From a virus, in IMG/VR virus record IMGVR_UViG_3300025809_000151, positions 1 to 21,570 of that record: DNA of 21,570 nucleotides; one strand, 5' to 3'. Positions 7,032 through 17,776 of the stretch are shown here, piece by piece; the first letter of the stretch is position 1; the number at the start of each line of letters is the position of its first letter. Both the position numbers and the translations under genes were made by a program. Below the pieces are notes generated by a model. That model worked only from the letters and a program-made list of their open reading frames with translations. It ran no database searches and was not told where the DNA came from.

Positions 7032-10000
7032 TTACACCACCGTTAAGTTAGCTGAGGACAGTACAACAACCGTACTAGAAATCACTGTTACAGTCATAAG
7101 GGACTTATCAGCAAGTGTAGTTGTACTAGCACTAATATCTGTAGCAGACCCATCTTCACGCACCGTAGTAAACCCTGTGTAAGCAAGGGTAACAGCAGCG
7201 CCTGTGTTGTTGTAGACTGTGCGGATGTCTCCCGACAAGAGGTTAGTATTTACCAGCGTCAGCGTCGTCGTAGTTGCATCAGACAGGTCACTGATACCAG
7301 ACCCACTAGGGGAGTGGTCGGCAGTTGTTGGGCTATCCAATTGCGGGGTATTGTCAATAGAGACAACGATGTCTACATCAGCAGAGCCGTTGAAGCTCAC
7401 GGAACCCGTTGCGTCACCACTCAAGGAGATCGTACGGGGAGTCGTAAGGTTATCAGCGGTTGCCAGTGCAGCAGACACTTCAACGAACGCAGAGCCAGAC
7501 CAGCGGTAAGTCTTGTTGTCACCTGTAGTGACGTAGATCTTGCCTGTCTGCTTGTCTGCCGCTTGGAGTGCGTTGAGAGCCGTGAGGTCTACAGCTTCGA
7601 TAATGTCGTCTACGTAGCTAGGAAGCTGTGTAGCTGGGACCTTACCATCAGTGTCCAGCCCAGCGACGCCGTTAGCGATACCGATGGACGTAGAGTTGAT
7701 CTTAGCGTTCAACTCAGTCTGTAGGTTGGTTACATCGGCGATAGCGTGTGTGTGAGCCGAAGGAGCGAAGGTAGTAGGTACACCTGTAAGGGAGCTGTAG
7801 GCACCATCAAAGCTACCAGAGACAGTCTGAGGTTCCCACGTACTACCTGTGTCATTCCAAGCGAGTACCTGACCGTCCGTCGGAGCAGTCGCAGATACAT
7901 CCGAGTGGCTGTCCAGAGCGTGAGCCGAAGGATTAAACTCCGTAGGTACGCCTGTAAGAGTGCTATAGGCACCATCAAAGTCAGCACCAGCGCCGTCTGC
8001 AAGCCAGAGACCTGCAAGACCTACTTTCCAAGTAGTCCCTTGGTTTGATAGCGTCCCGTTGGACGAACTAGATACCATCTCAATCGCAACATCATCACTC
8101 CATGAAGCTATTAGTATGCCGTCACGTCGGTGGATGGTAACAATGTCCTGCGAGTACCCATCACCCGAGAAGATTTGCCGCTTATCACCTGTTAGTGTGG
8201 CGTTCGTGTCGATGTATGCCTCTACTTCTAACCAGTACAAAACCGGCTCAGTATCTTGCCCGTGGTTCCACGTTAAAATATCTCCACCAGTTCCGAAGGT
8301 ATTTGTTTGTACCTTGGTCTGCTCAATGACAGTGCCGAAGACACCGCCACCACCGCCACCACCAGCGATAGTCTGAGGTTCCCAAGTACCCCCAGCGTTG
8401 TTCCAAGCGAGCGCCTGACCGTCCGTAGGAGCCGTAGCAGCTACATCTGAGTGACTGCTTAGGGTGTGAGCAGACGGTGTGAAGTCCGCAGGTACACCTG
8501 TAAGAGAGCCGTAGGCACCATCGAACAACGTAGGTGTGTCCGTGAGGCTGTTGTAGCTACCGTCGAACAACGTAGGTGTGTTCGTGAGGCTGTTGTAGTC
8601 ACCGTCGAACAACACGGGGAGGTTCGTGAGGCTGTTGTAGTTACCATCGAACAACTCAGAGGCGTTCGCAAGTTCAACCCAAGAGCCACTGTGGGCAAAG
8701 TAACCCTTACCCGTAGCGTGTACATGGGCAAACATGCCGTGGTACGAAGAGGCGTTCGGGAGGTCTACGAGGTTGGCGTAGACGTTGGAGTACGTGATCT
8801 GGTTATTACCAAAGTCAGCAGCAGCGTTAGGCTGTAGAGCCGTGTCCGCAGTTGTACCCTGAGCAGACGTTGCGTAGTCCGTAGACGCAGTAGCAGCCGC
8901 CGTACCGAGGGTAGGGCTTCCTGTAAGGGAGGCATACGTACCATCGAAGAGCACCGGCTGGTTTGAAAGGCTGTTGTAGTCGCCATCAAAACCCTGAACA
9001 ACAGAGGTCGTTACACCAGTTACGTGACCGTAGGTATCAAACGTCAGGCCATCAACAAAGGTATCAGTCGTAGCTGTAATGTCGGTCTGCGTAGAGGTGT
9101 CGGCGTGGGAGATGGTACCAGCAGAAGTTACGTTTGCACCGGTCAGACCAGCACCTACGATAACCTCAGTAACCGTACCAGAACCTGTACCGTTAGCACC
9201 AGCGGCACCCTCGGGGATAGTGAAGTCGAGGATAGCAGCACCAGTGGTGCCGGAGTTGGTAACAGTAACAGTAGTACCCGGTGTGCCTGTAGTGACCGTA
9301 CCTACGGTAACCGTAGCGGCATCACCAACGAGACCTTGGATACCTTGGGCACCAGCGTCACCTTGAGTACCCTGAGGACCGGTTTCGCCTTGGAGACCTT
9401 GGATACCTTGGACACCCTGAGTACCTTGGGCACCCACGAGGCTTGCAAGCCAAGCAGTCTCATCACCGATAAAGCCGTCAGCTACGGCTACAAGGTAAGC
9501 GCTAGTACCCGCTGGGCCGGTAGCGCCTGCGTCACCTTGGACACCTTGGAGACCCTGCACACCCTGAGGACCAGCTGGGCCTGTTTCACCCTGTGGGCCT
9601 TCAGGACCCGTGGGACCTGCAACACCCTGCATAGAGCTAAGCCATTCAGCTTCAGTACCTACAAAGCCAGCATCTAGCGCCGCCTCGTAAGCGGTATCAC
9701 CGTCTGGACCTTGAGGACCTTGAGGCCCTGTAGCGCCTGCTGGACCGGTTCCGCCTTGGAGACCTTGGGCACCCGTAGGACCCGCCGGGCCTGTAGCGCC
9801 GGTAGTACCAGTTACACCAGTGTTACCTTGGGGACCTGTGGCACCCTGAGGACCTGTGGGACCCTGAGGGCCTTGAGGACCTGTAGACGCCTGATCACGG
9901 GCTTCTTCGGCGATGTCACGGTTAGACTTCAGGGCAAACTCGATGTCCGTAGGGCGGATCACAGAGCCAGCAGCGAAGGTGAATACATCATCTTCAGCAG

Positions 10001-10273: not shown

Positions 10274-13200
10274 CTAGAGCTGCTCTCCGTCTGTTACAAA
10301 GAGTTCAACCTCTTTACGTTCAAAGTTAGTCATGGTTTCGAAGACTGCGCCGCCTCGACGTTCTTCTACAAGCTTCTCTACCCGCTTAAACTCAGCAGTA
10401 GACGATGCTTTAAGATCCGCCATAAACTTGTTATATGCCGCATCTCGATAACCTTTAACGATGTCCTGAAGTACCTTCTCAGGTCGCTGCAAGGCATCAC
10501 TGCCAGTGTTATCCTGTGTAGCTGGATCCTCACCCGCATTAGCCGCCGCTTTAAGAGTGCGGAATGCAACATTGAGTTCAGACTTCTCCTCTGTGAACTG
10601 CTCGTAGAGAGCATCATCGAGGGTAACCGGAGCTTCGTTAGCTCTCACAGGGAAGGTAGCATTCATAAGGCTTGCCGCCACAGCATCCGCAATGGACTGA
10701 CCGCTCTCAAGATACACCAGCGAAAGGTCAATCTCGGTACCGGGTACCATGACCTTGTCTCGGGAAAGGTCTACACCATACTGGAGCTTCATCTCCTCCA
10801 AGTATGCCTTGGACTTGTAAGCCTCAGCTTGGTTCGACATAGGAGAGATACCACGGCCAAAGCCGGGTGTGAGGTGACCAGTGACAGAGCGCCGCTTGTT
10901 ACCCACGTTCCACTCACCGATTGCCTGTAGGTTGTAGAAGTTTTCTTTAAGAGCCTCACCGGGGTTCTGCATGATGTCTAGCCTAGAAGAGCCACGCATC
11001 AGTTCTTCATCCACCACAGTCTTGATAGACTTTTGCAGTGGGTTGAAGGGTGAATATGCGGCCCCCTTGGACAACGCCCATTTCGCCAGAGCATCCTCAG
11101 GCCGCTTAGCATCAAACAGCTTCATGTTACTCTGAAGGCCACGCACAACAGACTGCTGACCGAAGGTAGCGTTAGTTGCGATAGCGAGAACATTCCCTAC
11201 GTCCTGAGCCATGTTAAGCTCATCTGTAGTGCGGGAGGGGCTGTCAATGTAGTCGAGAACGGAGGTAGTCAGAGCAAATGCTGCAAAAGGGGTGAGCATC
11301 TCAGCAAAGTTAAAGGTAAGTTCCTTACCGTCAGCCTCTATGATGATACCTTGGTCAGTCTCTCCGAACTTGGAGGAGACGCCCTTAATACGAAACTCAC
11401 CGGGATCGGGGAGATACATCAGTTCTTCATCGTCGTCTGCCGTACGGTTGAACGTCCATGCAGCAACCGCAGCGCCCATAGCAGCCGCAGGGCCAGCTAG
11501 GTAGTGGGCACGCATACTGTCGATGACACGCTGATCGGTTTCAACCTCAAGAGGCCGAGGGTTACCGAACTGATCCTTTACTGTCTCGCCCATTCCAAAG
11601 CCCATCTTTGCACGGGTTGTTTTAGATAACAGGGAGAAGCCGGGAATAGCCATGAAGAGACCCTCACGGCCAGTACGGAGGCCCATCCCAAAGAACGGGA
11701 ACAGCGTCTTAACTGTCTTAGCGACTGCGTTGTTCTTACCAACTAACTGCTCAGCGCCTTTGATTGCACCTTGCTCTTTGTTACGGAAGCCACTTTCAGC
11801 CGCAAGCCTAATGTAAGCAGTGTCGTAGAAACGTCCACCAGCTTCAGTAAGTTCTGCCTTGTCACGGAAGGACATGAGCATAGCGCTCATCTCATCATCC
11901 GTCAGGTATCCATTCTTCTTTCGAAGGTCCTGCCACTTCTTCCCATAGAGACCCGTGAGGGCATCTAGTTCTACGTTGTGGTGGTAGAAAACTTGAGTAG
12001 AGAACTCAGAGATACCCGCAATGATACGGTAGGAGGCTGAGCCTAGAACACGCAGCCCAGCACGGAGGCCGAGCGTAGGAATAACGCCATTGATCTTAGA
12101 AGTGTCATTCCAAATGTCCTTGATGGACTTTGCACGGGTCATCTCAGCAGTAGCCATACCAAGGCTGTCAGCGGAGTTGGAGAGGTCCGCATTGGAAGTA
12201 CGCCACACTGTAGCGAACCCCTTGAGGCCCCTACGTAGCTGCTTACGACCCTCAAAGAACAGAGCGCCCTTCTTAGCGATACGAGCGGTTTCTCCCAAGT
12301 TACCCTTAAAGGCTTCCGAGAGTGCCCGTGTGAGGCCACCTAAAGTACCGAGGTATGCCATACGCAGTGGCTCAACTACCATGTTGAGGGACCACACGTT
12401 TGCAGAGAGCAGCATGTTACCCTGACCGAACAGGAGGGTATCATCGAAGAGGGTGTTACTTTCATCATACTTCAGGGCAGAAAACTTCTGCTTACCCTTA
12501 GCTGTACCAGCCTCAAGAGCCTGTAGTTTCTGACCGAGTGCCTGTGGGGTGATCTCACCACGAGCGGCCTGAGCGTTGAGGATGTCCTCCATCGCCTTCT
12601 GGCCCTTAGGTGTGCGTACCTCACGAGCAGCACGAAGCAGTTGAGCGCCCTTACGGACCTCAGCCTTTTGCTTGGAGCCGATAGCAGCAGCGTCAGCTTG
12701 TAGCTCACGTACCGCAGCAGCAATCATAGGGAACTGCTTAGGGGACGTGTTTAGCTCTAGGATCCACTCTTCACCGGCTTCCTTAAGGAGCGGCGTGAGT
12801 TCCTCCATGGACTGCTCACCACGTAGTACCTTGCCGAGTACATCGATCTTACGTTCGATACCCTTGAGGTACACTAGGCGGGTGTTGAAGTCGGCGATAG
12901 CATCAGGAGTGTCCAACTCAATGAGCATAGACGCTGGGATGTTATCTCCATACTCCTTACGGAGCATCTTGAGGGTCTTCTTAGCGGCTGACTTAGCGGC
13001 AGGGAAGGTGGTACGTGAGCGGTCGTAGCGAGCCTTCATAGACCCCTTAACAGCGTCAAGACCATCAGCGATATCGTCATGTCCGATAGTAGACACAAAG
13101 TCTTTCATACCGGTCATGTTGTTAAGGACTTCAGGCTCTACGTCATCTTTAAGAGCAGCGCCTGCCGCCAGCTTGTTTTCTGCTGTACGAGCCGCTGTAT

Positions 13201-14965
13201 CAGTGTCACGCATAGCGGCACTAACACGCTGGGCTACTACGTTATTGTAAGGAGCCTTAGTCGTTGTGTCTGTCGTAGGGGTAGCCTTAGGGGTCGTTTC
13301 GGACGCTGGGGTTTCCACCACGCCTGACTTACTGTTAGCAGGAGCCTGTGCAGAGTTCAGGAGATCGTTCTGCTGCTGCGCTGCGTTATCCAGCATACGT
13401 TCCGCAGGGTCTCCAATCTTATTGTTTACACCATCACCAGCGTTAGCCAGTAGTGAGGCCTGATCATCGGAGGCCCCCTGAAGGAGGCGTTCCGCAGGGT
13501 CTTCGATCTTGTTGTTTACACCATCACCAGCGTTAGCCAGTAGTGAGGCCTGATCATCGGAGGCCCCCTGAAGGAGACGTTCCGCAGGGTCTCCAATTTT
13601 ATTGTTTACACCATCACCAGCGTTAGCCAGTAGTGCGGCCTGATCATCGGAGGCCCCCTGAAGGAGACGTTCCGCAGGGTCTTCGATCTTGTTGTTAGCA
13701 GGGGCTTCTACGTTGTCGAGGAAGGAACGGTTGAGTGCCTCAGATTGCTCTAGAGCTAGTTCCGCCTGCGCTTCAATAGCGATACCCCGTGCGTCGTCTG
13801 CTGCCTTGGTTGCACCTTTAAGGTCACCCTTGGCGAGAGCCGTTACACCAGCACCAGCGATTTCACCTACGGTACCGAACAGGCCACTCTCAGCGAGGAG
13901 CTTTGCACGGTTCAGCAGAGGCTCATCTTCTACCTCAGACATCCACAGGGGAGCAGAGGTACCAAGAGCAGTAACAGCGTTCTGAATAGCCAGCCCGTCG
14001 TTTTCCTCAAAGATGATCTGATCGATAGCAGCAGGCTTTGCGATAGCAATACCAGCTTTTGTTAGTACACCAGTGGCACCGAGACCGCCGCCTGTGAAGG
14101 CTGACAATACGGCGAACTCAGAGATCTCCTTTACGAAACCACCTGAGACGCTGTCGATCTGATCCATCTTTGCGAGTAAGGCGTCATGCTCTTCAGCCTT
14201 CTGTTTGCCAGTGTACTCCGAGGAGGCCGCAGGGAAGGCTTCCCGGTAGGCACGCATGGTGCCATGAGTAAGCTGATACTCACCTTGAATACCTTGCTCA
14301 AAAGAGTTCTGAGGAACCTCAGGTGCATCCTTAGTGATAAGTCCGAAGAAGAACTTACGAGGCTCACCGGGTTCTGGCTGAGCATTTTCGTTAAGCCACG
14401 CTAGTTCCTCAGGTGACTGGGGTGTCAGCTTGAAGAACCCTTCAGAGCGGTCGTCTTTCAAAGGCTCAGGCAGAGATGTAACTAACTTCTCGCCTAGCTT
14501 GTCCAACGACATTTCAGCTTGTTCAACACCAAGGCCCACACCTTCAATAAGGTCGTTACCCTGCGTAGGGGCTAACTTCCGTACATCGTTGGCAACAGCA
14601 CCAGCCACGTCGCCGATAGCCTTGAATGCCCCTTGGTATTCTTCAGCGTCAGTGTCAGCGTCGTCAGCCTCAGGTACGTCTTGGATCTCCGCTGGGAGTT
14701 CTTCGAGTTTACGTGCGGCTGCTCTGTGGCGTGTACTGCTTTCATCCAGAAGGTGTAAGCCAGCAGCACCATGCTTATCTCTAAGAGCAAGGCGGTGAGC
14801 TTCATATTCTACGTCGTCTTTTTTTAACCCCCCGAAGTAATGGAGGTGGGCGATAGCCTTGTCTGATAGTTCCGGGTGAGCTTCCTTCATGGATGCTCCG
14901 TACGGGGTATAATCACCGAGGTCGTTGACCACCGATGCAAGGATATTCGTTTCATTGTCCGCCAT
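10274..14965 (-). CDS. Large internal virion protein, T7 gp16-like ejection protein
   Basis: A 1563-residue protein in the position of T7 gp16 (1318 residues), which is ejected and spans the inner membrane to help pull DNA in. Assignment rests on size, order after the gp15-like gene, and architecture: long alpha-helical stretches, a small-residue hydrophobic segment (about 285-322, GGGLGATGVLTKAGIAIAKP) and another near 1151-1172 (AGPAAAMGAAVAAWTF). Residues about 424-522 are three and a fraction copies of a 30-residue repeat, followed by a Thr/Pro-rich linker (TPKATPTTDTTTKAP). I found no lytic transglycosylase signature (Glu-Ser followed by a G-x-x-G-L-M-Q-type motif) at the N-terminus, unlike T7 gp16. 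It starts 20 bases after the gp15-like gene, with AAAGGA upstream. Confidence 0.82.
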   Translation of the reverse strand: MADNETNILASVVNDLGDYTPYGASMKEAHPELSDKAIAHLHYFGGLKKDDVEYEAHRLALRDKHGAAGLHLLDESSTRHRAAARKLEELPAEIQDVPEADDADTDAEEYQGAFKAIGDVAGAVANDVRKLAPTQGNDLIEGVGLGVEQAEMSLDKLGEKLVTSLPEPLKDDRSEGFFKLTPQSPEELAWLNENAQPEPGEPRKFFFGLITKDAPEVPQNSFEQGIQGEYQLTHGTMRAYREAFPAASSEYTGKQKAEEHDALLAKMDQIDSVSGGFVKEISEFAVLSAFTGGGLGATGVLTKAGIAIAKPAAIDQIIFEENDGLAIQNAVTALGTSAPLWMSEVEDEPLLNRAKLLAESGLFGTVGEIAGAGVTALAKGDLKGATKAADDARGIAIEAQAELALEQSEALNRSFLDNVEAPANNKIEDPAERLLQGASDDQAALLANAGDGVNNKIGDPAERLLQGASDDQASLLANAGDGVNNKIEDPAERLLQGASDDQASLLANAGDGVNNKIGDPAERMLDNAAQQQNDLLNSAQAPANSKSGVVETPASETTPKATPTTDTTTKAPYNNVVAQRVSAAMRDTDTAARTAENKLAAGAALKDDVEPEVLNNMTGMKDFVSTIGHDDIADGLDAVKGSMKARYDRSRTTFPAAKSAAKKTLKMLRKEYGDNIPASMLIELDTPDAIADFNTRLVYLKGIERKIDVLGKVLRGEQSMEELTPLLKEAGEEWILELNTSPKQFPMIAAAVRELQADAAAIGSKQKAEVRKGAQLLRAAREVRTPKGQKAMEDILNAQAARGEITPQALGQKLQALEAGTAKGKQKFSALKYDESNTLFDDTLLFGQGNMLLSANVWSLNMVVEPLRMAYLGTLGGLTRALSEAFKGNLGETARIAKKGALFFEGRKQLRRGLKGFATVWRTSNADLSNSADSLGMATAEMTRAKSIKDIWNDTSKINGVIPTLGLRAGLRVLGSASYRIIAGISEFSTQVFYHHNVELDALTGLYGKKWQDLRKKNGYLTDDEMSAMLMSFRDKAELTEAGGRFYDTAYIRLAAESGFRNKEQGAIKGAEQLVGKNNAVAKTVKTLFPFFGMGLRTGREGLFMAIPGFSLLSKTTRAKMGFGMGETVKDQFGNPRPLEVETDQRVIDSMRAHYLAGPAAAMGAAVAAWTFNRTADDDEELMYLPDPGEFRIKGVSSKFGETDQGIIIEADGKELTFNFAEMLTPFAAFALTTSVLDYIDSPSRTTDELNMAQDVGNVLAIATNATFGQQSVVRGLQSNMKLFDAKRPEDALAKWALSKGAAYSPFNPLQKSIKTVVDEELMRGSSRLDIMQNPGEALKENFYNLQAIGEWNVGNKRRSVTGHLTPGFGRGISPMSNQAEAYKSKAYLEEMKLQYGVDLSRDKVMVPGTEIDLSLVYLESGQSIADAVAASLMNATFPVRANEAPVTLDDALYEQFTEEKSELNVAFRTLKAAANAGEDPATQDNTGSDALQRPEKVLQDIVKGYRDAAYNKFMADLKASSTAEFKRVEKLVEERRGGAVFETMTNFERKEVELFVTDGEQL
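13398..13696 (-). repeat. 90-bp in-frame tandem repeat in the gp16-like gene
   Basis: A 90-bp unit occurs three full times plus a partial copy, with identical period (unit starts at 13398, 13488, 13578 and 13668). Copies differ at only a few bases, mainly GAC/GGA-type changes giving NNKIE or NNKIG. The unit encodes 30 residues containing DPAERLLQGASDDQASLLAN and then AGDGV. Degenerate flanking copies (PAERMLDNAAQQQNDLLNSA) show older units at the edge. Confidence 0.93.
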
Positions 14966-14985: not shown

Positions 14986-16734
14986 TTAATCAGCGAACGC
15001 TTGTGGGTCTAGCCCTCCGGTTGCTGTATCGTTTTCCATTGCAAGCCACTGTTGGCCACCTGAGGTCTGCTCAAGTGCTGGCCAGAGGAATGGGTTGCGT
15101 TTGGCCTGTGTCCACCACGCAGCGTTTTCTTTGACATCTGCAACCGCTTCACCAGCACCCGTCATGTTCCACTGCTCAACGAAGGCAGTAGTAAACATGT
15201 CTTTGTAGAGATTTTGGATACCTTGGTGACCGCCGTTAGCTTGGATCCACTCGTTCTCCGGTAGACCACTGTCAATAACCATGCTGCGGACACGGTTCTT
15301 CACTGTAACGGCAGTAGAGCCAAGGAGGTTACCACCAAACTCAAGATCATCGCTGTCGAAGATTGCGTTGTCTTCGGTGCCCATAGCGGCCATAAGAGCC
15401 TTGCCCTGAGAGAGCATAGTATCTCGGCCAGCCAAAAACGCATCGTGACTGTCGATCTTTACGTCTTCGTTGCCCCAATTAGTAACAAGATTGGTGGCAT
15501 AGTTGGATGTATCGCCTGTAGCCTCTTCGTACGCAAACACCAGTTCCATCGCCTCAGCCTGCGTCTCAGCGTTAGCCATGTCCCGTTGTAGCCGCATCTT
15601 ATGGGGAGCTAGGGCCGCACCCTTTAGTGCATCCGCTGGCTTAGCCAAGAACATGCTTTCAGCCTTGTCAGCCAAAGCGATTAACTGAGGGGCACGTTCG
15701 GGGTTCTGGGCGGCATAGGACATAGCATAATCTCGTACTTGAGAAGCCATTTCCATGCCCTGTGCAGGGTTCGCACGTCCTTGTACTACTGTGTCGAGGA
15801 GCATAGAGCCGTATTGCTTACGGAAGTTCTCGTACTCCTTAGCGTCTACAGCAGCGTCCAGCCTTTCTTTCTTAGCTACAGCCTTGTCACGGGCATCGAT
15901 AAGAGCAACCCGAGTATCGCTACTGAGTGTCTTTGCGAAGTCCTTGTCCTCAAGTACCGCCGTGATTGTCTCAGGGCTTTGCGTGAGGGACGTAGCGACG
16001 ATGAGGGCATTACCGACAACACCGCTAGGGTTATCTACGCCAGCCTTAGCTAAGAGGGTTGCAGCCTCAGAGAGGGTGGCTTGGAGTTCTTCGGGCGTAC
16101 CATCAACGCTGATCTGACCTTCGAGAGTGGACACGAGGTCCTCACCCATATGCTCAAGACGACGTTGCTTAGCTTCAGTCGCCTGCGTAACCATCTTCTT
16201 GTTAGCGTAGGTGCGGTACTCAGCCATCATCTTGGCCTGCATCTCAGGTGGGTAACCTGACATCATTGCCTCGCCCTGATCTAACAGGAACGCTTGTAGC
16301 TTGTTGTGTCCGTCTTCTACGTCATCACCGAAGGCATCCCAGTTCGTCTCACGCTCCATATTGGCAACGGTACGAGCATAGTCAGCGCCCATCCGCCCCT
16401 CTTGGTACGCTTGATGAAACAGGGGGCTATCTTGGACAGACGATCCACGGCTAGAAACACCAGCTTCGCCATCTTTGATACCCCGTAGGGTTTGGCGCTG
16501 GATCTCTTCGTTCTGGAACTTCTGCGCCGCCTGTAGTTCAGACTGACGCTGGGCGTTCTGGTAACGATCTACTTGCTGGTTTACACCTTTGAGAGACCCC
16601 GAGAGAGACCCGAGAGCATCCGCAAGTGCCTTAGAGCCAGACCGGTCGTTGCCGGGGCGCATGTATGAAGCCCGGTTACCAATCTGACCAGCAGAGGATA
16701 CCGGTGAGTTTAGTTTAACTGGTTCACGAGCCAT
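14986..16734 (-). CDS. Internal virion protein, T7 gp15-like position
   Basis: A 582-residue, mostly alpha-helical, Gln/Ala/Glu-rich soluble protein (T7 gp15 has 747). In T7, gp15 forms the periplasmic part of the DNA-ejection tube on gp14 and under gp16. Assignment here is mainly by position between gp14-like and gp16-like genes and by helical character. Residues 45-75 (VDRYQNAQRQSELQAAQKFQ) look coiled coil, and mid-protein segments (AKQRRLEHMGEDLVSTLEG; IDARDKAVAKKERLDAAVDA) form long amphipathic helices. The C-terminus is Trp-rich (AAWWTQAKRNPFLWPALEQT). No enzymatic motif was recognised. It overlaps the gp14-like gene by 11 bases and has an AAGGAAA ribosome site eight bases before its ATG. 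Confidence 0.75.
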   Translation of the reverse strand: MAREPVKLNSPVSSAGQIGNRASYMRPGNDRSGSKALADALGSLSGSLKGVNQQVDRYQNAQRQSELQAAQKFQNEEIQRQTLRGIKDGEAGVSSRGSSVQDSPLFHQAYQEGRMGADYARTVANMERETNWDAFGDDVEDGHNKLQAFLLDQGEAMMSGYPPEMQAKMMAEYRTYANKKMVTQATEAKQRRLEHMGEDLVSTLEGQISVDGTPEELQATLSEAATLLAKAGVDNPSGVVGNALIVATSLTQSPETITAVLEDKDFAKTLSSDTRVALIDARDKAVAKKERLDAAVDAKEYENFRKQYGSMLLDTVVQGRANPAQGMEMASQVRDYAMSYAAQNPERAPQLIALADKAESMFLAKPADALKGAALAPHKMRLQRDMANAETQAEAMELVFAYEEATGDTSNYATNLVTNWGNEDVKIDSHDAFLAGRDTMLSQGKALMAAMGTEDNAIFDSDDLEFGGNLLGSTAVTVKNRVRSMVIDSGLPENEWIQANGGHQGIQNLYKDMFTTAFVEQWNMTGAGEAVADVKENAAWWTQAKRNPFLWPALEQTSGGQQWLAMENDTATGGLDPQAFAD

Positions 16735-17776
16735 AAGACTTGTTTCCTTGCTTGATGTCGTTGACGTTGCTGTTCTGCGCTACCGCATCCCCAACGCTAC
16801 CCAACATGCCCACACCGAACTCAATCCAAGGGGCAATCTTCTGGAGACCCTTGATGTCATCTGAGACCGGCATCTGCCGGGGGTCGATAACGGTATTGAC
16901 TTGGTTGTCACGAGCAATCTGGAGGTTCTGGATGTCTTGGTAGAAGCTGTCAGCAGCGTTCTTACGTGTTTGTTGGAACCTACGGGCACCCTTAGAGGTC
17001 TGTGAGGAGATGTCGTTAAACGTCTCTCGTGCAGACACACCAGACAGGTTAGAGGCACCGGTAGACGCAACAGCGCCCGAGCGTGCCATACGGCCTGTCA
17101 TTTCGAAGTCGAAGGCCTGTTGGCGTACGGTAAGATCATTCTGGAGGAACTTGAGGGCCGTACTGTCTACACTAGCGTCGTACGTAGCAGCAGCAGCCGC
17201 CTTGTTACGCTCGTAGTAGGCAACCTTCTCAGCCCGTTCCTGAGCAGCTTGTTTCTCAGCCGCATAGTTGTTGAAGAGGCTAGACGCTCCCTGCTGTAGG
17301 AAGTCCACGGCAAGCCCAGCGCCCTGAGACGCAAGGAAGCTACCAGCGCTGCCAAGCATACCACCACCGGCACCTGAGGCAGCAGCAGTACCACCACCGG
17401 CAGCAGCAGCGCCGCCCCCAGCAGCAGCGGTACCACCAGCGGCAGCACCTGTGGCACCTAAGCCCATAGCATTGGCCGCTAGTCCACCTGTGAGGCCCAC
17501 AGCAGCCGCACCGCCGACACCAAAGTCAACTAATGCGTTCTGCTCGTAGCTACCTGTTACGCCGTATTCTACGCCGTCGTAGGCTTGGTTAGCAGCGGAC
17601 CAGCCACCAGCAGCACCAGCGGCAGCACCGAGAGGGCCACCCAGAAGGAAGCCCCCGATGCCACCACCGACACCACCTACAAGGTTGGTGCCGAGGTTGC
17701 CGATGTTATTCCAGAAGCCACGGTCTTCTTCCCAGAGGCTATCTGATCCGTCGTTTTTGAAGTCAAATAGACCCAT
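16724..17776 (-). CDS. 14: Internal virion protein, T7 gp14-like
   Basis: A 350-residue protein (T7 gp14 has 196). The C-terminal two-thirds fit the gp14 pattern: an Ala-rich helix (EKQAAQERAEKVAYYERNKA), a long helical stretch with a GRMARSGAVASTGASNLSG bend, RRFQQTRKNAADSFYQDIQ, and a weakly hydrophobic end (WIEFGVGMLGSVGDAV). gp14 inserts in the outer membrane during DNA ejection. The N-terminal 165 residues are an extension absent from T7, with Gly/Ala-rich segments (GGVGGGIGGFLLGGPLG; then repeated AAAGGG-type runs at about 108-140) that could pack as close-helix or membrane pieces. It has a GGAGG ribosome site eight bases before the ATG, starts two bases after the tail protein B stop, and no gp13-like gene lies between. 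Confidence 0.78.
   Translation of the reverse strand: MGLFDFKNDGSDSLWEEDRGFWNNIGNLGTNLVGGVGGGIGGFLLGGPLGAAAGAAGGWSAANQAYDGVEYGVTGSYEQNALVDFGVGGAAAVGLTGGLAANAMGLGATGAAAGGTAAAGGGAAAAGGGTAAASGAGGGMLGSAGSFLASQGAGLAVDFLQQGASSLFNNYAAEKQAAQERAEKVAYYERNKAAAAATYDASVDSTALKFLQNDLTVRQQAFDFEMTGRMARSGAVASTGASNLSGVSARETFNDISSQTSKGARRFQQTRKNAADSFYQDIQNLQIARDNQVNTVIDPRQMPVSDDIKGLQKIAPWIEFGVGMLGSVGDAVAQNSNVNDIKQGNKSYGS

Follow-up and report, generated by a model that had tools for sequence, protein, structure and literature searches.

How a tandem repeat arises inside a phage ejection protein, and what its copy number might do there, is the question raised by a 90-bp array in a gp16-like gene of IMG/VR virus record IMGVR_UViG_3300025809_000151. 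The window, that is, the whole stretch of DNA that was analysed, comprises 21,570 bases (positions 1 to 21,570 of the record) and, judged by its gene content, is not a complete phage genome. The gene encoding the gp16-like ejection, or internal virion, protein is an open reading frame of 1563 residues on the minus strand (10274..14965), and the array lies within it at 13397..13696 on the same strand. The preferred reading, to which a probability of about 0.55 is assigned, is that of a lineage-specific, in-frame expansion of a helical spacer, whose copy number would set the reach or flexibility of a tether.

Tandem Repeats Finder (TRF) resolves the array as 3.3 copies with a period of 90, 93% matches and zero indels, and its score of 537 is the highest of the 30 rows in the window. 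The identity at an offset of 90 is 0.93 over 210 nt, against a maximum of 0.42 in 100 codon shuffles at five offsets, and the longest exact repeat inside the array is 65 bp. The reading frame is kept throughout the array, which consists of three full units and the 30-bp head of a fourth, units 1-4 encoding residues 424-543. On the minus strand, unit 1 (NNKIEDPAERLLQGASDDQAALLANAGDGV), with an E head, occupies 13607..13696; unit 2, with a G head, 13517..13606; unit 3, again with an E head, 13427..13516; and unit 4 13337..13426, the last being composed of a G-type head of 30 nt (13397-13426) and a diverged body (MLDNAAQQQNDLLNSAQAPA). Units 1 and 3 are identical at 88/90 nt, and unit 2 matches each of them at 85/90. 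Unit 4 shares 50-53/90 nt with units 1-3; its DNA has diverged, yet the Leu/Ala pattern is kept at the protein level. A first-pass annotation, made from the sequence alone, had reported a tandem 90-bp duplication in a gp16-like protein, with three full copies and almost no divergence. The array, its host gene (by gene order and profile match), the exact period and the three full units are all borne out, whereas the alternation of the heads and the in-register remnants of an older 90-bp period in the outer units had been missed.

This alternation bears on how the array grew. Six sites vary among units 1-3: sites 9, 30 and 61 are each private to one unit, while sites 6, 12 and 14 alternate, reading C-T-C-T, C-T-C-T and A-G-A-G across units 1-4 and giving the peptide heads E-G-E-G. 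Since the alternation is strict at all three head sites, a single stepwise triplication is ruled out, and at least two events would be needed, for example a two-unit step or an exchange between array variants. Directly upstream and in register with the array lies a diverged unit 0 (13697..13786, minus strand), which matches unit 4 at 42/90 nt, a value equalled by none of the 1325 other in-frame windows of the gene. Its match to unit 1 is just 36/90 nt (equalled by 23/1325 windows), and the stretch following unit 4 is no unit (32/90, equalled by 99/1325). The outer 21-nt edges, encoding EAPANNK and QAPANSK exactly 120 codons (four periods) apart, agree at 16/21 nt, which is equalled in 0/1421 cases; these motifs were chosen by eye and tested afterwards. 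The likeness of units 0 and 4, combined with the matching edge motifs, points to diverged outer units that flank a core multiplied later, over an older 90-bp period.

Elsewhere in the protein, with array pairs excluded, the best off-diagonal score over 30 residues is 36, compared with 34-38 in three shuffles, so the earlier description of a gene otherwise free of repeats holds except for unit 0 just upstream. Judged from the sequence, the array very probably arose by lineage-specific, in-frame expansion of an older diverged repeat, through slippage or unequal recombination. The tandem growth first proposed is thereby retained, not as a single event but as at least two steps on top of the older 90-bp period.

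The age of this expansion is poorly fixed. The three private changes in 270 nt, about one per unit, correspond to approximately 2% divergence of one unit from another (95% range 0.5-6.5%). The nozzle gene of the window differs from those of sibling contigs, some of them partial, by 0% (L004), 0.7% (L002), 1.1% (L005), 4.3% (L011), 5.9% (L003) and 7.7% (L010), and the range spans all but the most extreme of these differences; dating the expansion to the interval that separates 99%-identical strains from 92-96% siblings was abandoned, as the range covers both. Units 2 and 3 show a synonymous difference of 0.18, equal to that between the window and L003 in the nozzle gene, and this counts against the term ‘recent’ used in the first-pass annotation, unless the head differences predate the expansion. 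Support for the term is therefore no more than loose.

Fold prediction of the array alone (156 residues, single sequence) gives mostly helix, with a predicted local distance difference test (pLDDT) value of 63.0 and a predicted template modelling (pTM) score of 0.23, and from this prediction only ‘helical’ is adopted. An amphipathic helix had been proposed for each unit; the helix is retained at low confidence, but the amphipathicity of units 1-3 is not unusual, their hydrophobic moment lying at the 63rd-87th percentile within the protein, depending on register, and that of unit 4 at the 96th-97th. The 30-residue unit contains no Phe, Trp or Tyr. The frame is unbroken by the 90-bp unit, which sets the array apart from on/off phase-variable repeats, whose unit is not a multiple of three.

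The identity of the protein follows from gene order and from distant relatives. The gene lies after those for the gp12 nozzle (PF25675), gp14 (PF24072) and gp15 and before the tail fibre (PF03906), in the expected order. Its product has no Pfam or PHROG match at the limits used and, at E values up to 10, does not match the internal virion PHROG directly. With the whole protein and its C-terminal part, tblastn found nothing in 50,697 phage records (a set from which close neighbours of the window may be missing); the conserved module described below returned nothing from annotated phages, and the array returned three records at E 4-10, taken as chance. Pattern-based IMG/VR scans with gp16, the array and the C-terminal part gave no relatives, the exact 30-base unit pattern had no match in IMG/VR, and no gp16 relative was found in GTDB genomes. 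Two loci found via the nozzle protein, L006 and L007, provide the connection: their gp16 proteins, both cut by contig ends, are 24-25% identical to that of the window over the aligned part. The L007 protein matches 11 phage records at E up to 1; nine of these are Roseobacter CRP phages (best E 4e-9, weakest 0.07), three of which carry the annotation internal virion protein D, and phrog_6651 (internal virion protein) was matched by all four proteins tested, three from CRP phages and that of L007.

A profile of 13 relatives scores 37.7 bits against the window protein, 34.8 with the N-terminal part and 6.8 with the C-terminal part, and neither the reversed protein nor any of 20 shuffled versions of its C-terminal part exceeds -0.8 bits. 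Columns conserved in 9/9 rows flank the linker on either side, among them G364 on its N-terminal side and P1090, F1091 and P1108 on its C-terminal side. Profile A5 had 11 matches at E 0.2-0.74 in the PDB, all at the level of chance, none of them a phage protein and none a solved gp16 structure, and profile comparison of alignment A3 gave a 19% probability for a single CRP-361 protein and nothing for phage Titus. No transglycosylase of the type found at the N-terminus of the T7 protein is recognisable by Pfam or PHROG match; according to a review that covers T7 (PMC8954989), this domain is not conserved in P22 or Sf6 either and therefore does not define the wider kind. The array protein is thus gp16-like and linked to the internal virion proteins of Roseobacter phages (‘internal virion protein D’, PHROG 6651), with which, as with T7 gp16, it shares gene order and size class, the conserved module that precedes the linker and positions conserved within the C-terminal body. 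The phage, a marine one, probably injects it with its DNA, and a Rhodobacterales host is a guess from the kinship with Roseobacter phages.

The relatives have a common layout, in which the module is followed by a poorly conserved linker and then by the C-terminal body. In the window, the module spans approximately residues 270-395 (13781..14158, minus strand), as placed by alignment with relatives and hydropathy, and it holds the two most hydrophobic 19-residue stretches of the protein, starting at residues 284 (1.36) and 360 (1.20); the next starts at residue 1220 (1.14). The array lies in the length-variable linker, 252 residues long (residues 365-616; 13118..13873, minus strand), delimited by hidden Markov model alignment landmarks of which the end landmark is weakly aligned. 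The linker table has 58 rows; a length filter removed ten fragments, L006 and L007 among them, which left 47 in addition to that of the window, and five of these (Titus, HTVC031P, L060, L064 and L065), with no readable landmark or poor alignment, were set aside, leaving 42 for the range.

In these 42 relatives the linker measures 90-313 residues, and two of the 36 distinct linkers, those of L043 and L056, are longer than that of the window. Subtraction of the 120 residues of units 1-4 leaves 132 residues in the window; the corresponding median among relatives is 126 for the 47 rows of the first filter, 129 for the 42 rows and 157 for the 36 distinct linkers. Within one close group the linker changes while the flanks stay constant, CRP-114 having 258 + 226 + 850 residues and CRP-227 258 + 195 + 850, and in the alignment of L006 and L007 with the window a gap of 96 columns spans units 1-3 together with the head of unit 4. 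A possible relation of linker length to the length of gp15 was dropped as an apparent clade effect: linkers of 123-126 residues occur in several phages whose gp15 has ~680-750 residues, but a short gp15 also occurs with a short linker, in L059 (507 and 99 residues) and MedS28C10 (~505, by annotation, and 90 residues). In L067 and L068, whose proteins have at least 1535 residues, the matched module starts at residue 581, compared with approximately residues 90-250 in most other loci, which indicates a long N-terminal extension.

A comparison of copy number among relatives had been suggested as a check; in the relatives examined, by TRF and by protein-level scans, no comparable array was found. 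At a TRF score of at least 50, two of 16 gp16 genes (the window, L006, L007 and 13 annotated phages) contain an array, that of the window and that of CRP-118, the latter a 21-bp repeat of 1.9 copies inside the linker; 0/13 annotated phage genes thus carry one of comparable size. At a score of at least 40, none of 42 IMG/VR loci has a linker array, and six have short arrays elsewhere; among these loci L045 and L046 duplicate the contigs L007 and L006, several of the proteins are incomplete, and L044 and L063 end before the linker. At the protein level, after removal of linkers shorter than 80 residues, those with fewer than 40 residues after the landmark and identical ones, repeats occur in eight of 39 distinct linkers, including the window, at p <=0.05 (100 shuffles each, uncorrected for 39 tests). 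They are clear only in the window (score 101) and in L055 (59, at a 15-residue offset), the other six scoring 30-41. The L055 linker holds a diverged 15-residue tandem repeat (EVNEVDENGQPILKE / EVNAVDENGQPIIDE) that is absent from the TRF rows at a score of at least 40. Outside the linker, the gp16 of CRP-804 (L015, 17456-21109) has a duplication at a 49-residue offset near its N-terminus, with a score of 69 against 34-36 in three shuffles.

The place of the array within the protein suggests what it may do. In the T7 review (PMC8954989), gp16 is described as beginning with an N-terminus that cuts peptidoglycan, followed by a gp15-binding tape, the first membrane region (243-410), gp16-C and the second membrane region, with gp16-C (411-1118), the DNA-binding body, placed by the authors in a ring density ~120 Å below the inner membrane. 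By position, the module and linker of the window correspond to the junction of the first membrane region and gp16-C, and a spacer or tether of adjustable length is preferred for this reason. A 30-residue helix-plus-loop segment would have been multiplied in the linker between a putatively membrane-active module and the C-terminal body. After ejection, the linker would serve as a tether between the segment of gp16 that traverses the inner membrane and the segment holding the DNA as it enters, and copy number would set the reach or flexibility of this tether and leave the two folded parts undisturbed. A spacer function is tentatively assigned on this analogy. Changes among units 1-3 lean synonymous (4 in 22.6 synonymous sites vs 2 in 67.4 nonsynonymous sites; Fisher p = 0.03), which hints at selection to keep the peptide. 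The first-pass proposal that copy number may set the length of a segment passing through the ejection channel is plausible only in the form of length tuning, in a linker that is variable in the family.

Several observations weigh against the spacer reading. No copy-number variation is visible: no close-sibling contig found covers gp16, the closest ending in or before gp15. Linker length changes often, but rarely through visible repeats, CRP-118 and L055 being the sole other standouts. The synonymous excess comprises six sites only, of which sites 6, 12 and 14 may come from two older heads. Fold predictions are poor, both for alignment A3 (pLDDT 32.6, unused) and for the array alone. The hydropathy peaks of the module are modest, its membrane role being assigned by analogy; the far end of the linker is set by a weak C-terminal match; and a second alignment shifts the gaps of L006 and L007, which places 12 of their residues inside the array. 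The window protein is also longer than most relatives on both sides of the linker, with 364 residues before it, against 109-297 in 35 of the 36 distinct relatives (some cut by contig ends) and 681 in one, and 947 after it, against 746-880 in complete relatives; the array is therefore not the whole of the excess length.

Neutral expansion is a close rival, though a less likely account. In this case the linker would tolerate nearly any in-frame insertion, slippage would have multiplied 90 bp, and copy number would be without effect, as the widely variable length and poorly conserved sequence of the linkers and the want of a comparable array in the relatives would all lead one to expect. Set against it, each as evidence from small numbers, are the synonymous lean among the units, the Leu/Ala pattern that unit 4 keeps despite its DNA divergence, and the exact 90-bp period kept over at least two steps atop the older repeat. 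An improbable alternative is a multivalent binding array, for instance with every helix bound to a single neighbouring gp15 or gp16 molecule inside the virion core or the channel. Amphipathic helices that are nearly identical and regularly spaced would suit such docking, and T7 gp16 has a ‘molecular tape’ that binds gp15; in that review, however, the tape precedes the first membrane region (PMC8954989), whereas the array follows the corresponding module. L006 and L007, moreover, have homologous gp14 and gp15 but lack the array, and its 120 residues include 21 acidic vs 8 basic ones, an acidic excess that makes DNA binding unlikely. An assembly artefact, with the copy number made by collapsing or joining strain variants in the metagenome, is very unlikely: the record is incomplete by gene content and no independent contig over the array was found, but the longest exact repeat is short relative to common assembly k-mers and reads, each unit is marked by private changes, and collapse would lower the copy number, not raise it.

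A general kind close to the array is the in-frame length variation of structural-protein linkers by tandem repeats. The array resembles this kind in that its unit keeps the frame, its inner copies are near-identical and its outer ones are older and diverged, and differs in that the linker belongs to an ejection protein. Among open papers on tandem repeats in internal virion or ejection proteins and tape measures, covered by their titles and the starts of their abstracts, no report of a repeat in an ejection-protein linker was found. The best functional parallel is the TP901-1 tape measure, by likeness and not by membership. The TP901-1 paper (PMC5099701) reports that removing repeat units shortens the tail, and its authors suggest that the repeats ease gain or loss of length; what is alike is the presence of changeable, in-frame repeat units in a long phage protein serving DNA delivery. 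The same authors state that tail length is not fixed by the repeats on their own, a further point against the spacer reading. The TP901-1 protein is a siphophage tail protein with repeats of 11 or 18 residues marked by Trp or Phe, whereas the window array has a 30-residue unit, lacks aromatic residues and stands in a T7 structural gene order.

The array is a real but modest and fairly ordinary evolutionary event, and the array by itself is less useful than the series of linker lengths across the family. With linkers from 90 to more than 300 residues and the flanks kept, this natural series marks where length can change without functional loss and allows a direct test of whether DNA entry depends on how far gp16 reaches past the inner membrane. 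Proteins of the ejection apparatus are flexible and difficult to work with, and the repeat shows one way in which length changes begin. As a speculation with rather low odds, marine phages with T7 gene order might retune an adjustable ejection-protein tether, from the membrane part to the part holding DNA, sometimes by gain or loss of helical repeats, and so fit it to the envelope of a new host, as an ejection counterpart of tape-measure repeats.

The genes around gp16 follow the T7 order on the minus strand of the window, from the end of the major head protein gene through the terminase large subunit. The end of the major head protein gene is accompanied on this strand by the tube (PF17212) and nozzle (gp12, PF25675) genes. 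The gp14-like gene (16724..17776, minus strand) is recognised by T7_gp14 (PF24072) at 28.6 bits, against a cut-off of 27; its product has no PHROG match, and tblastn found no match to it in annotated phages. An imperfect 21-bp, Gly/Ala-rich repeat is reported by TRF at 17378-17447 in this gene, and several length differences surround it in the alignment with L006. Between its nozzle gene and gp14, which are adjacent in the window, L006 carries an extra open reading frame of 247 residues (12706-13449). The gp15-like protein (14986..16734, minus strand; 582 residues) is assigned by position; it has no PHROG or Pfam match, and it is 45% identical over 369 residues to the protein in the same position in L006 and L007.

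Beyond the gp16-like gene lies the tail fibre gene, with the T7 fibre N-terminal domain (PF03906), and the window also holds the genes for the terminase small subunit and the terminase large subunit, the latter recognised by a DNA match at 1098-1289. The tail fibre gene has a 42-bp tandem repeat of its own at 8517-8655 (3.3 copies, 87% matches, TRF score 201), which encodes FDG-Y-SLT-P repeats; another part of the same protein matches the Pfam phage tail repeat PF12789, under its cut-off. Collagen-like Gly-X-Y repeats occupy 9333-9884 of this gene (Pfam Collagen; several TRF rows), and a ‘collagen-like protein’ adjoins gp16 in two CRP phages too.

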